A stretch of DNA of 64,000 nt from Methanocaldococcus vulcanius M7 (lineage in GTDB: Archaea; AGJL01; Methanococci; Methanococcales; Methanocaldococcaceae): assembly GCF_000024625.1 (NCBI RefSeq), contig NC_013407.1, forward strand, positions 558,001-622,000, in the 5' to 3' direction. A program made the position numbers and the translations under genes. The notes beneath the pieces were generated by a model. It was given only the letters and a program-made list of their open reading frames with translations. It was not told where the DNA came from and did no database searches. Each line of letters starts with the position of its first letter. The stretch's first letter is position 1. This document shows positions 3,940 through 8,686 of this stretch, in pieces.

Positions 3940-4083
3940 CTAAATTTGATATAATTTAAGGTAATTTTTTAGCATATCCCCAAGAGCTTTTTTAATAACT
4001 ACGAAAAAAATAAAACTGTGTGGATTTTTTAATATTGATATAAATGCTTTCTTAAATAAGTCATTTTCATCCTCAAAATTCAT
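3940..4083 (-). CDS. small 47-residue protein coupled to the upstream membrane protein gene
   Basis: A short frame beginning MNFEDENDLFKKAF and ending LKLYQI. Its ATG overlaps the TGA of the UPF0132 gene at 4080-4454 as ATGA, the classic translational-coupling arrangement, which also occurs at 5930-5933 in this same run. GAGG lies eight bases before the ATG. The product has an acidic start, a short hydrophobic stretch (FIFFVVIKKAL) and a basic tail. I recognise no family. It is the last gene of the minus-strand block. It could be a chance frame, but the overlap makes that less likely. Confidence 0.5.
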   Translation of the reverse strand: MNFEDENDLFKKAFISILKNPHSFIFFVVIKKALGDMLKNYLKLYQI

Positions 4084-4454
4084 GTTATCATCCTCTCAGC
4101 AATATTTCCAATTATTGGGAGTTTAAATTTTTCTCCACCAGATGCTTTGTAAGCTCCGACAATGCACAATATAACATATACAATAAGCCAAACTATTAAA
4201 AAGCAATAAAATGCATTATCAAGCAGTGGTGGCGTGGAATACATGAGATATAATCCAAAGTAAAGATATATTGTGGCAATTCCGGTTCCAACCAGTAAAT
4301 AGATTACAACCAATAATAAGGCCTGTAAAGAATGAAATTTAATGAATCCATTTTTATTAAATATAATTAAAAACAACAACGGCACTACAAACAATAAAAT
4401 AAACGTTGAGAGGTAAGATAATGAAGCAACAATATTTTCTGTTTTAATATTCAT
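4080..4454 (-). CDS. UPF0132/Tic20-like four-helix membrane protein (paralogue 1)
   Basis: A 124-residue protein with about four hydrophobic helices. It has the family hallmark of a charged turn followed by KFHSLQALLLV (residues 39-49) and a C-terminal GAYKASGG then LPIIGNIAERMI. Function in this family is unknown. GGTGAAATT precedes the ATG. The gene follows its paralogue at 4464-4910 by 9 bases and overlaps a 47-codon frame downstream. Bases 4090-4118 are identical to 5958-5986 in the third paralogue, pointing to recent duplication or gene conversion. Confidence 0.8.
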   Translation of the reverse strand: MNIKTENIVASLSYLSTFILLFVVPLLFLIIFNKNGFIKFHSLQALLLVVIYLLVGTGIATIYLYFGLYLMYSTPPLLDNAFYCFLIVWLIVYVILCIVGAYKASGGEKFKLPIIGNIAERMIT

Positions 4455-4463
4455 AATTTCACC

Positions 4464-4910
4464 TTATTTATTTAATGAAATCATTATTTTTTCAATAATT
4501 TTTCTTATTAATGGGATTTTGAACTCATAACCTACAATCACTGCATTAAATCCTACAATAAATGGAATTATCACAACGAACAATGAAAATAATCCAATAC
4601 TTCCTATGATACTTTCAATTAACTTTGAAGAACTATGGGAATTTAAAAAATAATCAATGTAATAATAAAACAATAACCAATAAACTACTGTCCCAAATAT
4701 AAAAACTACTAAAATTATTAAAAATAAAAATAATGCCTGTAATGAGTGAAATACAATAAATCTATTTTTTCTAAACGATATAAGGAAGATTATCGGAACT
4801 ATTAAAGGAAATATTGGAACAAGAATATGAGAAACAATTATCTGAATTATCAAAGACAACAAAATTAGGAGATAAATCGATGAAGCGATAATATTTTCTT
4901 TTATTTCCAT
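4464..4910 (-). CDS. UPF0132/Tic20-like membrane protein (paralogue 2, divergent)
   Basis: A 148-residue protein with about four hydrophobic helices and the same FRKNRF-xVFHSLQALFLF turn as its neighbours. Its C terminus has diverged: the GAYKASGG motif reads GFNAVIVGYEFKIPLIRK. GAGGTGGAATT precedes the ATG. It lies in the co-oriented minus-strand run between the exported protein gene 4941-5933 and paralogue 1. No function can be assigned beyond an integral membrane protein. Confidence 0.75.
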   Translation of the reverse strand: MEIKENIIASSIYLLILLSLIIQIIVSHILVPIFPLIVPIIFLISFRKNRFIVFHSLQALFLFLIILVVFIFGTVVYWLLFYYYIDYFLNSHSSSKLIESIIGSIGLFSLFVVIIPFIVGFNAVIVGYEFKIPLIRKIIEKIMISLNK

Positions 4911-4940
4911 AATTCCACCTCAAAAATAAAAAATTAAATA

Positions 4941-5933
4941 TTATCCAGTAACATCTTCTTGATTTATGAATAGTATTTTCTTTTCGTGATATAGTTCATT
5001 AATATATTGTTTTGATAGTTTTGCATCGATTATTGCAATGGCTTTTCCTGTTGAGTAAAAGGTTATTTCTCCAGATGTATTTTTGGAGATAATTTCATAA
5101 TATGCGTTATTTGTATAATATCCATAATATTTTGGATAGTATCCTAAAAAGTCCTTTGAATATATTAAATGCCCTTTTGCCTTTTGCTCTATACTGTAAT
5201 TTTTTGGAGTTTCAACACCTGTATATTTTGTTAAAGATTTAAGTAATTCATCGACTTCATCTTCAAAAATAAACAGTTCATATTTCTTTCTAATTTTATC
5301 AAACTCTTCAGAAATGTTCTTTTTATAATTTATGACCTTTCTTTTATATTCTTCACTGTATCCTATTTTTTGTGGGATCAAAATTCTAACATAGTCCAAA
5401 GTTCCGTTAAACTCTATCTTATACTTCAATTTGTATATGTTGTTTCCAGTTTTTGTAATATTTGCTTCTATAAACTTTCCATAAGGATATACAGGAGGAT
5501 TCTTAAATATACAATACATTGGAAGAATTGTGTAGGTTTTTGAACTTAAAGAGATATTTTTAACCTCAATTATATTGTTATTAAAATTAATCATATCCCT
5601 ACTCCAATTAACTTTTACAAATTTATACCCTTTCGGAGCATAGTCCTTAACATTCGGAGATAAAAATCTATAATCAACGATTATGATTTCAGTGTTGTTT
5701 ATAATCTCTTTAGGAATTTCCTCTACTATTGGAGCAGTTCTATTAACCTCATAAGGATTGTATATGATGTATGCGATTAAACACCCATAGTTATCTAAAT
5801 ACTGATACACTACATCAAAGTGAGTTGCTGAAATTGTAGGAACTCCTCTATCAACTGGAACCGTTAGATAATAACCAATAAACACTGCTATTGAAAAAAT
5901 AAAAAGAAAAAGAAATAGGTTTTTATTCTTCAT
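4941..5933 (-). CDS. membrane-anchored or exported protein of unknown function
   Basis: A 330-residue protein starting MKNKNLFLFLFIFSIAVFIGYYL, a signal anchor (about residues 5-23), followed by a soluble extracellular part rich in Tyr, Asn and NxS/T sequons. I recognise no family. Residues 195-235 are charged and may form a coiled coil. The start ATG overlaps the stop of the paralogue-3 gene as ATGA, with GGTGG just before it, so translation is probably coupled to that membrane protein. Sitting between UPF0132 paralogues suggests a joint envelope role, which is inference. Confidence 0.75.
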   Translation of the reverse strand: MKNKNLFLFLFIFSIAVFIGYYLTVPVDRGVPTISATHFDVVYQYLDNYGCLIAYIIYNPYEVNRTAPIVEEIPKEIINNTEIIIVDYRFLSPNVKDYAPKGYKFVKVNWSRDMINFNNNIIEVKNISLSSKTYTILPMYCIFKNPPVYPYGKFIEANITKTGNNIYKLKYKIEFNGTLDYVRILIPQKIGYSEEYKRKVINYKKNISEEFDKIRKKYELFIFEDEVDELLKSLTKYTGVETPKNYSIEQKAKGHLIYSKDFLGYYPKYYGYYTNNAYYEIISKNTSGEITFYSTGKAIAIIDAKLSKQYINELYHEKKILFINQEDVTG

Positions 5934-6316
5934 GATTCCACCAATAATAGTTTGACGATCCTCTCAGCAATATTTCCAATTATTGGAAATTTGAACCATT
6001 TTCCTCCAGATGCTTTATAAGCTCCAAATAAGAGAGATATAAAAAATCCATAAACATAAATAGCACATAAAATCATTAATAAATCGAAATTTCCATTGTT
6101 TATTAAATAATTTAGAATGTATTCTTTATTCGTTAAAAGTTCCATTGCAATAATATAAAATATCAGTTGAATAAAAAATGCTTGGATTGAATGGAATAAG
6201 ATAAATTTGCTCTTTCTAAAAACAATTATAAAGATTAATGGGGCAAAGACAGGAAACACAAAGAATGAGAGATAAGATAAAGCTGATAAAATATGTTCTG
6301 TATTTAGGTTTTTCAT
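5930..6316 (-). CDS. UPF0132/Tic20-like membrane protein (paralogue 3)
   Basis: A 128-residue protein with about four hydrophobic segments, the turn FRKSKFILFHSIQAFF, and the C-terminal GAYKASGG then FPIIGNIAERIV, almost the same as paralogue 1. GGTGATAAAAA precedes the ATG. The last four bases overlap the start of the exported-protein gene (ATGA). The nucleotide identity with paralogue 1 over 29 bases at the 3' end exceeds what the rest of the two genes would suggest. Confidence 0.8.
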   Translation of the reverse strand: MKNLNTEHILSALSYLSFFVFPVFAPLIFIIVFRKSKFILFHSIQAFFIQLIFYIIAMELLTNKEYILNYLINNGNFDLLMILCAIYVYGFFISLLFGAYKASGGKWFKFPIIGNIAERIVKLLLVES

Positions 6317-6342
6317 TTTTTATCACCATTTTAAATCTAAAA

Positions 6343-6780
6343 TCATTTTTTAAAATTTATACACAATACTGTTGTATATGATAATAATATCAAAAATATG
6401 GCAGTTATTTTTATGAAAAACACAAGTAGTGGATTACTTTTTCCAATTAGATAATCACCAATTACTAAAAGAGCGGTAGATAATGACATGACAACAATTG
6501 GGATCATTACAAACAACCACGCCATTATTAAAAAATTTACAACCTCTTTTTTTCTTTCTTTATTTTTAAAATAAGTTCCAATACTTATAAGCAAAAATAG
6601 TATAAACCATCCAATTAATATACCAACAGCTTCATACAGTATGGAATAAACTCCCTTAGAAAAATAAGAAGAACCATAACCACAGGCGTAATATATAACT
6701 CCAATAAATGAAATGGTGCTTCCAATAAATTTTAAAGTTGATTTTATGCATTTTAAGTGTTGTTTTATTTCATTTAACAT
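6343..6780 (-). CDS. integral membrane protein, four helices, unknown family
   Basis: A 145-residue protein beginning MLNEIKQHLKCIKSTLKFIG. Hydrophobic stretches lie near residues 15-35, 48-70, 85-108 and 115-140. The in-frame ATG twelve bases upstream (6792) is less likely because GGTGG then sits inside the coding region, at the right distance before 6780. I recognise no family. It is co-oriented with the neighbouring membrane protein genes, 26 bases before paralogue 3. Confidence 0.65.
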   Translation of the reverse strand: MLNEIKQHLKCIKSTLKFIGSTISFIGVIYYACGYGSSYFSKGVYSILYEAVGILIGWFILFLLISIGTYFKNKERKKEVVNFLIMAWLFVMIPIVVMSLSTALLVIGDYLIGKSNPLLVFFIKITAIFLILLSYTTVLCINFKK

Positions 6781-6904
6781 TAATTCCACCATTAGATAAT
6801 TTAGAAATTAATAAAAATTATCATTTTCAATGTTCGGCAGATTTTTGCTCATTTTTACCACTCTTGCTAAGATGGCATTATTATTACGAAATTTAATTGA
6901 ATGC

Positions 6905-7036
6905 TTAGTTTTTAAAGTATTTCTTACTAAGTTTGATTATTATAAGTGCTAAACTAACAATTATCATTGAAATAATGAGGATTTGTAAAATTATTATTAA
7001 CATAAGTTGAATGACAGGCAGGACATCGTTGAGCAT
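6905..7036 (-). CDS. 43-residue single-helix membrane microprotein
   Basis: The frame begins MLNDVLPVIQLMLIIILQ, continues as one long run of Ile, Leu and Val to about residue 34, and ends in a basic tail (KLSKKYFKN). GTGAT lies five bases before the ATG. The pattern of a hydrophobic helix followed by lysines fits an N-out, C-in microprotein. It fills the gap between two membrane protein genes on the same strand, which supports a real gene, but AT-rich DNA can yield such frames by chance. Confidence 0.5.
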   Translation of the reverse strand: MLNDVLPVIQLMLIIILQILIISMIIVSLALIIIKLSKKYFKN

Positions 7037-7083
7037 ACATTATCACTATATCTAATTATTTTGGTTCATGAAAACCCCCTGCC

Positions 7084-7473
7084 TCAAACATAGTTGGCAT
7101 TTGATTTAACAAACTCCACTGCCATAAGTCCATATACGCCTAATAACCGAAACAAAAATAATGAAGAAAGATACTTGTAATATGTAACTCCTGAATGCAA
7201 ATCTAATCCATTATGAATCTCAAATAACAATATTAATATTGACCCAATCACAAATGCTATGTCGGCTCTAAAAAGGGTTTTAAGTTGTTTATTATTAGAC
7301 ACTATCAAAAATCCAGCTAAGATAGTGGTTGGAAGTATAATCTGGGTAATTTGCTCAATGAAAAAATGCAATAAACCATTGGAAATTACAAAGGAACTTA
7401 ATATTGATAATATCATTGTAGATACACATAAAAATATTGCCAACAATACTCCAATAAACAATTTTTTTGACAT
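7084..7473 (-). CDS. integral membrane protein, four helices, candidate partner or immunity protein
   Basis: A 129-residue protein (MSKKLFIGVLLAIFLCVSTM) with four hydrophobic helices and short loops, including a central NNKQLKTLFRAD basic turn. GGTGAAAAC precedes the ATG. No family recognised. It starts 46 bases downstream of the stop of the exported protein at 7519-8397, so the two are probably co-transcribed. An immunity or export role for that product is only an inference from the arrangement. Confidence 0.65.
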   Translation of the reverse strand: MSKKLFIGVLLAIFLCVSTMILSILSSFVISNGLLHFFIEQITQIILPTTILAGFLIVSNNKQLKTLFRADIAFVIGSILILLFEIHNGLDLHSGVTYYKYLSSLFLFRLLGVYGLMAVEFVKSNANYV

Positions 7474-7518
7474 GTTTTCACCTTGTCACCAAAAATAAAA
7501 AATTAAGTATGAAATATA

Positions 7519-8397
7519 TTAAGGATGGGGTTCTCCGATTCCTCCTATGTCTTTAATTACATAAGGTCCGATTCTTTCATAAGAATACCAAAAACCAAGT
7601 CCCCATACATACCAAATACATCCGTTTTCGTCTTCAATAGCGGACATTCCATGGTTCATTATAATATCAGTCACTGCACTTGAAATTCCACCATACACCA
7701 CAGCGGCAGACCCCTCCGTAGCTAGACCGACTAAAATCCCCACTATTGCCCCAATAACAGCTGGAGCATCATTTGAATATACTTGTGCAAGATGTATATG
7801 GTAAAGTCTGTTTCCGTGAATAACCTTAGTATTCCATGGTTCTATACCATAATAATCGTAGTCAGGGTGTGCATATTTAATACCTCTACCCTCTACATAA
7901 TAAACTCCATCCCACCAGTAGTGTGTTGTAGTGTATGACATTGGTAATATATTTCCTATTTTTGCATTTACTTTCATATCCTTGAGTTTCTTTTTATTTA
8001 TCTCCATTGCCTTTTTTAGTGTCATTCCTTTTTCAATAGGGTTGTAGAAGGTTTTTATTGTTTTGAATTTTTTACCATTCATATACATTTCAGTTAAATA
8101 AGTATCCTTTACTTTTTTAGTTATGAATTTGTAGTTTATTGTTTTTCCTGTTTTCTTATCTTTTATTTGAAGAGTAGCAACTTTCCCATCTGTATGGTAT
8201 TTTATTATTACTCCATTAACTTCAACTATCTGCTCTGTTGGCGTCTTTTTTAGTATTTTAATATCTACCTTCTCCACACCAACTGGCTTTTTACTTACCT
8301 CTGACAAGCTCGTTGATGTAGCAAAAACGCTCCCTACAACGCATAGCATAGCCACTAAGGCAAAAATTTTAAATATTCCTTTGCTCCATAGTTTCAT
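7519..8397 (-). CDS. exported protein with a Gly-rich hydrophobic C-terminal segment (bacteriocin-like architecture)
   Basis: A 292-residue protein with a clear Sec signal peptide (residues 1-27, cleavage after VFA). Residues 40-120 are a Lys/Thr-rich, beta-strand-like part. An aromatic segment (THYWWDGVYYVEG) lies near residue 160. Residues 211-247 form a Gly/Ala/Val-rich hydrophobic stretch (APAVIGAIVGILVGLA), followed by another aromatic segment (WYVWGLGFWYSY). Long precursors with a Gly-rich amphipathic C terminus are seen in some archaeocins such as halocin C8, but no sequence match is claimed. GAGGGG precedes the ATG. It is the first gene of the minus-strand block. Confidence 0.7.
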   Translation of the reverse strand: MKLWSKGIFKIFALVAMLCVVGSVFATSTSLSEVSKKPVGVEKVDIKILKKTPTEQIVEVNGVIIKYHTDGKVATLQIKDKKTGKTINYKFITKKVKDTYLTEMYMNGKKFKTIKTFYNPIEKGMTLKKAMEINKKKLKDMKVNAKIGNILPMSYTTTHYWWDGVYYVEGRGIKYAHPDYDYYGIEPWNTKVIHGNRLYHIHLAQVYSNDAPAVIGAIVGILVGLATEGSAAVVYGGISSAVTDIIMNHGMSAIEDENGCIWYVWGLGFWYSYERIGPYVIKDIGGIGEPHP

Positions 8398-8686
8398 AAT
8401 ACCCCTCTTTATTTGGTAGTTGGGCTTTATTTGGCTCCGCCTCTATACAGAGGCATCATCGCCAGCTATTTTTTACTTTACCTTTGTAAAGTTATATTTA
8501 TCAATCCTTTGATAGTTTTATCTTAACTTTTTAATATTTAAACCTTACTAAGTAGTGTTGTTTTAATCTGAAACAACTAAAAACAACTTAGTAAAGTACA
8601 AAAAGAGAGATATTAAAGTTCTCAATAAGATAAAAAACCTAAAAAATTAATTTTTAAAAAAATCAAAACTAAAATAGATAGTTTAT
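8398..8686 (-). promoter_or_regulatory. upstream region of the exported-protein gene with inverted repeats and a repeat-element remnant
   Basis: TTACTAAGT (8545-8553) is repeated in inverted form as ACTTAGTAA (8586-8594). Nested inside is GTTGTTT (8557-8563) with AAACAAC (8571-8577), a 7-bp hairpin. Nearer the gene, GCCTCT (8439-8444) pairs with AGAGGC (8449-8454). The 13 bases 8449-8461 are identical to 31726-31738 in the dispersed element, so this looks like a truncated copy. An AT-rich ATATTTATC stretch near 8491-8502 could serve as a TATA box in either direction. Confidence 0.5.

Follow-up and report, generated by a model that had tools for sequence, protein, structure and literature searches.

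A probable polymorphic secreted-toxin locus with predicted orphan immunity genes and a kink-turn-like leader RNA in Methanocaldococcus vulcanius M7

A stretch of 64,000 nucleotides from the genome of Methanocaldococcus vulcanius M7 (contig NC_013407.1, positions 558,001 to 622,000; hereafter the window) contains at positions 3940–8397 an island of nine open reading frames (ORFs), which is probably a polymorphic secreted-toxin locus with a Sec-exported precursor, cognate and orphan immunity proteins and a kink-turn-controlled leader. The architecture of the exported protein is modular, payloads are swapped behind its constant part, payloads are paired with small membrane partners, and a conserved, covarying leader element is present. 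The nine ORFs are co-oriented on the minus strand and encode 292, 129, 43, 149, 128, 330, 148, 124 and 47 amino acids (aa), in agreement with the positions and sizes given in a preliminary description of this DNA. Almost nothing is known from experiment about the weapons that methanogens and hyperthermophilic archaea use; the island yields a concrete predicted toxin/immunity pair together with a set of orphan immunity genes, and its leader RNA provides a genome-wide marker with which further candidates can be found from sequence alone.

The 292-aa protein starts with a signal peptide (residues 1–26; 8320–8397, minus strand, as are all features of the island and its leader given below) with an AxA-type site after residue 26, in line with the export claimed for it earlier, and this signal is near-identical in a paralogue at G000:C1:650226 of the same genome. 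It is followed by a conserved prodomain, predicted as a beta-meander (residues 27–123; 8029–8319) and shared with proteins that bear another payload, and by a predicted toxin payload (residues 158–292 and the stop codon; 7519–7926), an HYWWDG...HPDY...DENGC domain that is conserved in genome G010 and in Thermococcus (type A). Residues 1 to about 122 are 38–48% identical to exported proteins of three genomes (G024, G001 and G020), the remaining ~150 residues of which are related to one another and unrelated to the payload of the window (type B). In addition, the first 38 residues are 92–95% identical to those of a 241-aa exported protein encoded 84 kb away in the same genome, the remainder of which is a third payload differing from both others (type C). 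The constant N-terminal region with exchangeable C-terminal parts that characterises polymorphic toxins was thus observed, for the prodomain in three genomes and for the signal with further payloads.

The full architecture of the 292-aa protein recurs in Thermococcus at 29–33% identity. For the payload alone, the relatives that were aligned show 43–51% identity to the window; the HYWWDGVY...HPDY motif is invariant, and a DE..C motif follows the Gly-rich hydrophobic segment. This segment, a predicted helical hairpin by composition and a low-confidence model (residues 208–247; 7657–7776), contains 6 Gly and 7 Ala in 40 residues, and 28 aromatic or His residues were counted in the 135-residue payload, in line with the Gly-rich segment between aromatic-rich stretches described previously. 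The Thermococcus relative gave a weak Gly-zipper match. Structure prediction by AlphaFold was moderately confident for the beta-meander of the prodomain (predicted local distance difference test score, pLDDT, 58–77 over most of residues 51–110) and of low confidence for the hairpin, and the model was judged too poor for a fold search. No recognisable toxin domain was found at the C terminus, and a tblastn search of plasmids returned nothing. A single match in IMG/VR, short, chance-like and inside a large unrelated ORF, was rejected.

The family of the small multi-transmembrane (multi-TM) partner tends to track the type of payload. Type A is accompanied by the 129-aa family in the window and, behind a payload remnant, in G016, by a 152-aa 4-TM protein in G010 and by a 3-TM family in Thermococcus, where a protein of 105–125 aa follows the toxin gene at seven loci (L017, L018, L019, L070, L073, L078 and L079). 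Type B is accompanied by DUF4870 proteins in G001 and G020 and by a 6-TM protein in G024, and type C by the 149-aa family in M. vulcanius, in G004 and, behind a decayed leader, in G001. The 129-aa protein of the island (7084–7473), with about four TM helices as expected from the preliminary description, is encoded 45 bp downstream of the toxin gene and is predicted to be its cognate immunity protein; its homologue in G016 (66% identity) lies directly behind the remnant of a type A payload C terminus. A 43-aa one-TM peptide (6905–7036) is a possible small immunity protein, of which a 91% identical copy lies directly behind another leader-bearing ORF in G004.

The other small membrane proteins are copies or relatives of partners found behind other payloads and stand here without those payloads, and therefore look like orphan immunity genes. 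The 149-aa protein (6343–6792), previously described as four-helix and found to have three to four TM helices, is a predicted orphan immunity protein for type C: it is 97% identical to the protein encoded immediately after the 241-aa exported protein in the 650-kb locus, its family follows a fragment of a type C payload in G004, and in G001 an intact homologue (70%; L129 5546–6130) is fused in frame to a decayed toxin leader. The claim of three UPF0132 paralogues held to differing degrees, as only the 124-aa protein (4080–4454) passes the Pfam cut-off for DUF4870 (expectation value, E, 1.4e-7), the 128-aa protein (5930–6316) falls just below it (1.7e-4), and the 148-aa protein (4464–4910) has no match and is linked to DUF4870 only through BLAST to the other two. 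All three are predicted orphan immunity proteins; the 128-aa protein, assigned to type B, is 73% identical to the protein encoded immediately after the type B payload in G001 and 45% identical to its counterpart in G020, and a 97% identical copy of the 124-aa protein occurs in the 650-kb toxin locus. The arrangement expected of immunity genes, with one beside the toxin and orphan copies in arrays, is present, with immunity itself a prediction. The exported proteins might instead be signalling or adhesion (self-recognition) factors, with the small membrane proteins as their receptors or sensors. Payload and partner do tend to co-occur, and kin recognition, kept open for the VARTIG modules of Thermococcales (PMC8416519), also fits a variable exported protein with a variable membrane partner. 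Immunity is, however, the better fit for partner copies that are orphaned from any exported protein, for decayed exported genes whose partners are intact (G016 and G001) and for a regulon sibling, described below, that is related to the tip of a bacterial polymorphic toxin; we regard the signalling or adhesion reading as improbable.

The island is flanked by housekeeping genes, with valS and ilvE on one side and a NifX-like gene and a permease on the other, and its GC (guanine plus cytosine) content is 28.1%, against 31.3% elsewhere in the window. Only two of 14 members of the genus have the block next to ilvE, and the other 12 lack it at that site, which makes it an accessory island. In G004 the same site is occupied, with the partner genes reordered and another ORF behind the same leader. 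Comparison of the window with the 650-kb locus revealed three separate pieces of DNA at 96–97% identity, comprising the leader (8299–8635), the 149-aa gene (6320–6814) and a DUF4870 gene (4045–4473), with unrelated DNA between them, a pattern of cassette exchange. The block could also be a mixed set of envelope proteins, DUF4870 among them, that came together at an accessory insertion site and have no common function; DUF4870 is indeed widespread as a stand-alone gene, and the 330-aa gene and the 47-codon ORF of the island fall outside the system. We consider such a mixed set very improbable, because the same gene families were found together at several loci, in varying order and behind matching payloads, and because a covarying leader RNA is common to the exported genes.

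The leader of the 292-aa gene, a conserved structured feature that the preliminary description does not mention, carries a kink-turn-like RNA hairpin (8429–8466) of the form GGC-GAU-GA-U-stem-loop-stem-G-GA-GCC, matching model R1 with 51.6 bits, and a Shine-Dalgarno sequence, GAGGGG (8402–8407). The hairpin consists of a C stem (GGC/GCC), a GAU bulge and tandem G.A pairs, then a variable stem, which reads GCCTC/GAGGC in the window and GCCC/GGGC, GAACAT/ATGTTC or GAATAG/CTATTC elsewhere. At the secondary-structure level, sequence consensus and covariation show all the parts of a kink-turn (short stem, 3-nucleotide bulge, tandem G.A pairs and second stem). In an alignment of 13 sequences that was not fitted to the structure, 91.7% of the cells are paired, with 21 double-sided changes against 6.7 in shuffles; in an alignment of 41 distinct model matches, which was fitted to the structure, 87.1% are paired, with 76 double-sided changes against 29.5 when shuffled, and slid controls on the same set gave 31–47% paired. 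A search of Rfam produced nothing that reached the curated cut-off or lay on the element, and two weak matches, mir-186 (on the promoter inverted repeat) and SCARNA11, were rejected as spurious. No paper describing the RNA was found in a literature search. The element is thus absent from Rfam and previously uncatalogued, and it marks a family of exported toxin-like genes in related species.

The covariance model recovered 38 copies (E ≤ 1e-4) in 13 genomes; all 13 belong to the Methanococcales, and about 261 genomes of other archaea gave none. None of the four Thermococcus leaders examined showed the RNA, which is therefore not tied to the 292-aa family itself. Downstream sequence was readable for 36 copies; in 35 of these cases an exported ORF with a related leader peptide follows, a few of these ORFs being frameshifted. 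The remaining copy (L025 9701–9743, in G020) lies before an ORF whose signal peptide has been lost. Two weak matches (E ~0.01; L196 701–729 and L200 2594–2627) stand before an exported protein of 403–413 aa unlike the other cargoes. Most cargo ORFs are short (75–130 aa) and Gly/Ala-rich and are followed by a 2–5-TM protein, and several of these short-precursor loci also contain a SpoIIM protein (E 4e-30 and 2e-33) and an ATP-binding cassette (ABC) transporter. At L184 (G011:C1:1177000–1188000), a cassette made up of a leader RNA, a short precursor and a small TM protein occurs five times in succession, in several cases together with a SpoIIM-like gene, apparently as the result of amplification. 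A second island of the M. vulcanius genome, L183 (G000:C1:306000–316000), holds two short bacteriocin-like precursors under the leader RNA, accompanied by genes for SpoIIM, Yip1-like, CARDB and ABC-transporter proteins, and a third element, which is followed by an ORF resembling a polymorphic toxin.

This element, at 308.8 kb, precedes an ORF of 175 aa (L183:2193–2720) with a frameshifted leader. Over residues 53–171 the ORF matches the C-terminal end of a plasmid protein of Leptospira weilii that is annotated as a polymorphic toxin-type HINT domain protein (30% identity, E 2e-9), and also an unannotated stretch of a Simkania plasmid (39%, 6e-17). A small ORF follows directly in both M. vulcanius, where it encodes 91 aa, and Leptospira. 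The regulon is therefore tied to toxins independently of composition, as the C terminus of this sibling is related to a polymorphic toxin tip.

Toxicity, the membrane target, immunity, maturation and regulation by L7Ae are steps that we infer, and they most likely proceed as follows. The 292-aa precursor would be exported by Sec, as read from its signal peptide, with the constant beta-rich prodomain perhaps keeping the toxin inactive or guiding export, and proteolysis would then release the variable C-terminal payload, the Gly-rich hydrophobic hairpin of which probably inserts into the membrane of closely related archaea. The adjacent 129-aa four-TM protein would protect the producer as cognate immunity protein, and the 149-aa and DUF4870 proteins would act as orphan immunity against other payload types circulating in the lineage. 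The kink-turn hairpin beside the Shine-Dalgarno sequence probably restrains translation, jointly for the exported toxin-like genes. L7Ae is the candidate binder, because archaeal L7Ae represses translation through kink-turns in 5′ leaders (PMC5539422, PMC6298567). The core idea of the preliminary description, a precursor with a C-terminal active part and adjacent membrane immunity proteins, is supported by the payload swap behind a constant leader, the payload-associated partners, the orphan partner copies and the sibling with a polymorphic toxin tip, while killing activity is a prediction.

Instead of an L7Ae-dependent switch, the hairpin might be a thermosensor or a riboswitch that responds to a metabolite or an ion. 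Its internal loop is compact and highly conserved, tandem copies occur in several Methanococcaceae loci, and a neighbouring stem lies over the ribosome-binding site, all of which suit such a sensor. This internal loop, however, matches the standard kink-turn recipe, a target of L7Ae (PMC5539422), and a further conserved pocket was not seen, and we hold this option to be rather unlikely. Binding of L7Ae and control of translation are suggested by the motif and its position. We tentatively propose, at somewhat less than an even chance, that the kink-turn leader represents a new class of archaeal cis-regulatory RNA, which co-ordinates a whole toxin arsenal across Methanococcales (long modular toxins, short bacteriocin-like precursors and the polymorphic-toxin tip) and is coupled to L7Ae and ribosome status or to another signal. 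If the leader were an L7Ae or ligand switch, it would form a rare archaeal RNA regulon governing genes of microbial conflict.

Several observations weigh against the interpretation as a secreted-toxin locus. The payload is covered by no family in Pfam, NCBIfam or the Protein Data Bank (nothing above chance), and the AlphaFold model is poor, with a mean pLDDT of 43 from four sequences, so that membrane insertion rests on composition. The pairing is imperfect: across lineages, three partner families go with type A and two with type B. The 129-aa partner of Methanocaldococcus and the 105-aa partner of Thermococcus were tested for homology, and none was detected; DUF4870, which is also a stand-alone gene in many relatives, is hence not immunity-specific. 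Contrary to the preliminary description, no export genes were found within 3940–8397, Sec export being implied instead, and a dedicated protease or exporter was likewise not found there. The 175-aa ORF resembling a polymorphic toxin has a frameshifted start. As to translation, a stem able to cover the Shine-Dalgarno site is significantly enriched by direct stem count (14 of 25 against 23 of 233 control genes), but this count is a revised form of an earlier one, made on related sequences, and the accessibility of the ribosome-binding site in RNAfold did not differ significantly from that in controls (p 0.08).

The locus resembles the polymorphic toxin systems of bacteria, which are also predicted in archaea, in its constant N-terminal part and exchangeable C-terminal toxin part, in the immunity gene immediately downstream, and in its orphan immunity arrays and reshuffled cassettes. 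It differs in that the proteins are small (240–390 aa) and Sec-exported, with no recognised delivery scaffold, repeats or processing peptidase, and in that the payloads mostly lack known toxin domains, the partners are multi-TM proteins and a leader RNA is common. With halocin C8 and other archaeocins it shares a secreted archaeal precursor with a predicted C-terminal active part. The immunity protein of halocin C8 forms the N-terminal part of its own precursor, whereas the predicted immunity proteins here are separate membrane proteins, and searches of Pfam and NCBIfam gave no match to halocin families. An archaeocin or bacteriocin is secreted, made on ribosomes and inhibitory to relatives; a signal peptide was seen in the 292-aa protein, and inhibition of relatives is a prediction. 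A survey of antimicrobial peptides and polymorphic toxins of archaea, published in mBio in 2019, may already include some of the families treated here.

Circular bacteriocin loci, which encode SpoIIM/DUF95 proteins and an ABC transporter, are similar to the short-precursor siblings with their SpoIIM, small TM proteins and ABC transporter, but not to the 292-aa locus (3940–8397), which has neither SpoIIM/DUF95 nor a transporter; the short precursors that were scanned gave no match to the Pfam families of circular bacteriocins. Islands of dark matter in Methanococcales with DUF95 (arCOG01996) and a SalXY-like ABC transporter were predicted in 2014 to be variable membrane-associated defence systems (PMC4158269), and the short-precursor loci are almost certainly these same islands; the passages of that paper on the islands mention no toxin precursors, pairing, leader RNA or long modular toxins. 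The leader also resembles the autoregulatory L7Ae leaders (PMC5539422, PMC6298567) in having a kink-turn in the 5′ leader near the ribosome-binding site; those leaders regulate l7ae itself and a few mRNAs, whereas here one element fronts a set of exported toxin-like genes.

The nine genes had been taken as one system, a view that does not extend to two of them. The signal-anchored 330-aa protein (4941–5933) is probably a passenger outside the toxin system and was dropped as a member, since its homologues in three other species (63–65% identical; G013, G005 and G009) stand alone outside any such block, with no toxin neighbours in the stretches read. The 47-codon ORF (3940–4083) is probably a gene remnant, because it matches another gene of the genome, encoding 242 aa, over its first 46 bp only, at the start of that gene, and because it is broken in a sister species. 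In the promoter region, a TATA-box-like sequence, TTTAAATA (8535–8542), is conserved in the paralogous leader L028, and just upstream of it lies a perfect inverted repeat with 9-bp arms, TTACTAAGT...ACTTAGTAA (8545–8594), a candidate operator whose arms are kept in L028. In two Thermococcaceae genomes (G107 and G075), the loci L075 and L076 carry arrays of proteins ending in Gly-zipper segments (IVGSILPGAGTGAGAVAGAVIGG...), each beside 3–5-TM proteins, which are possible further toxin/immunity arrays.

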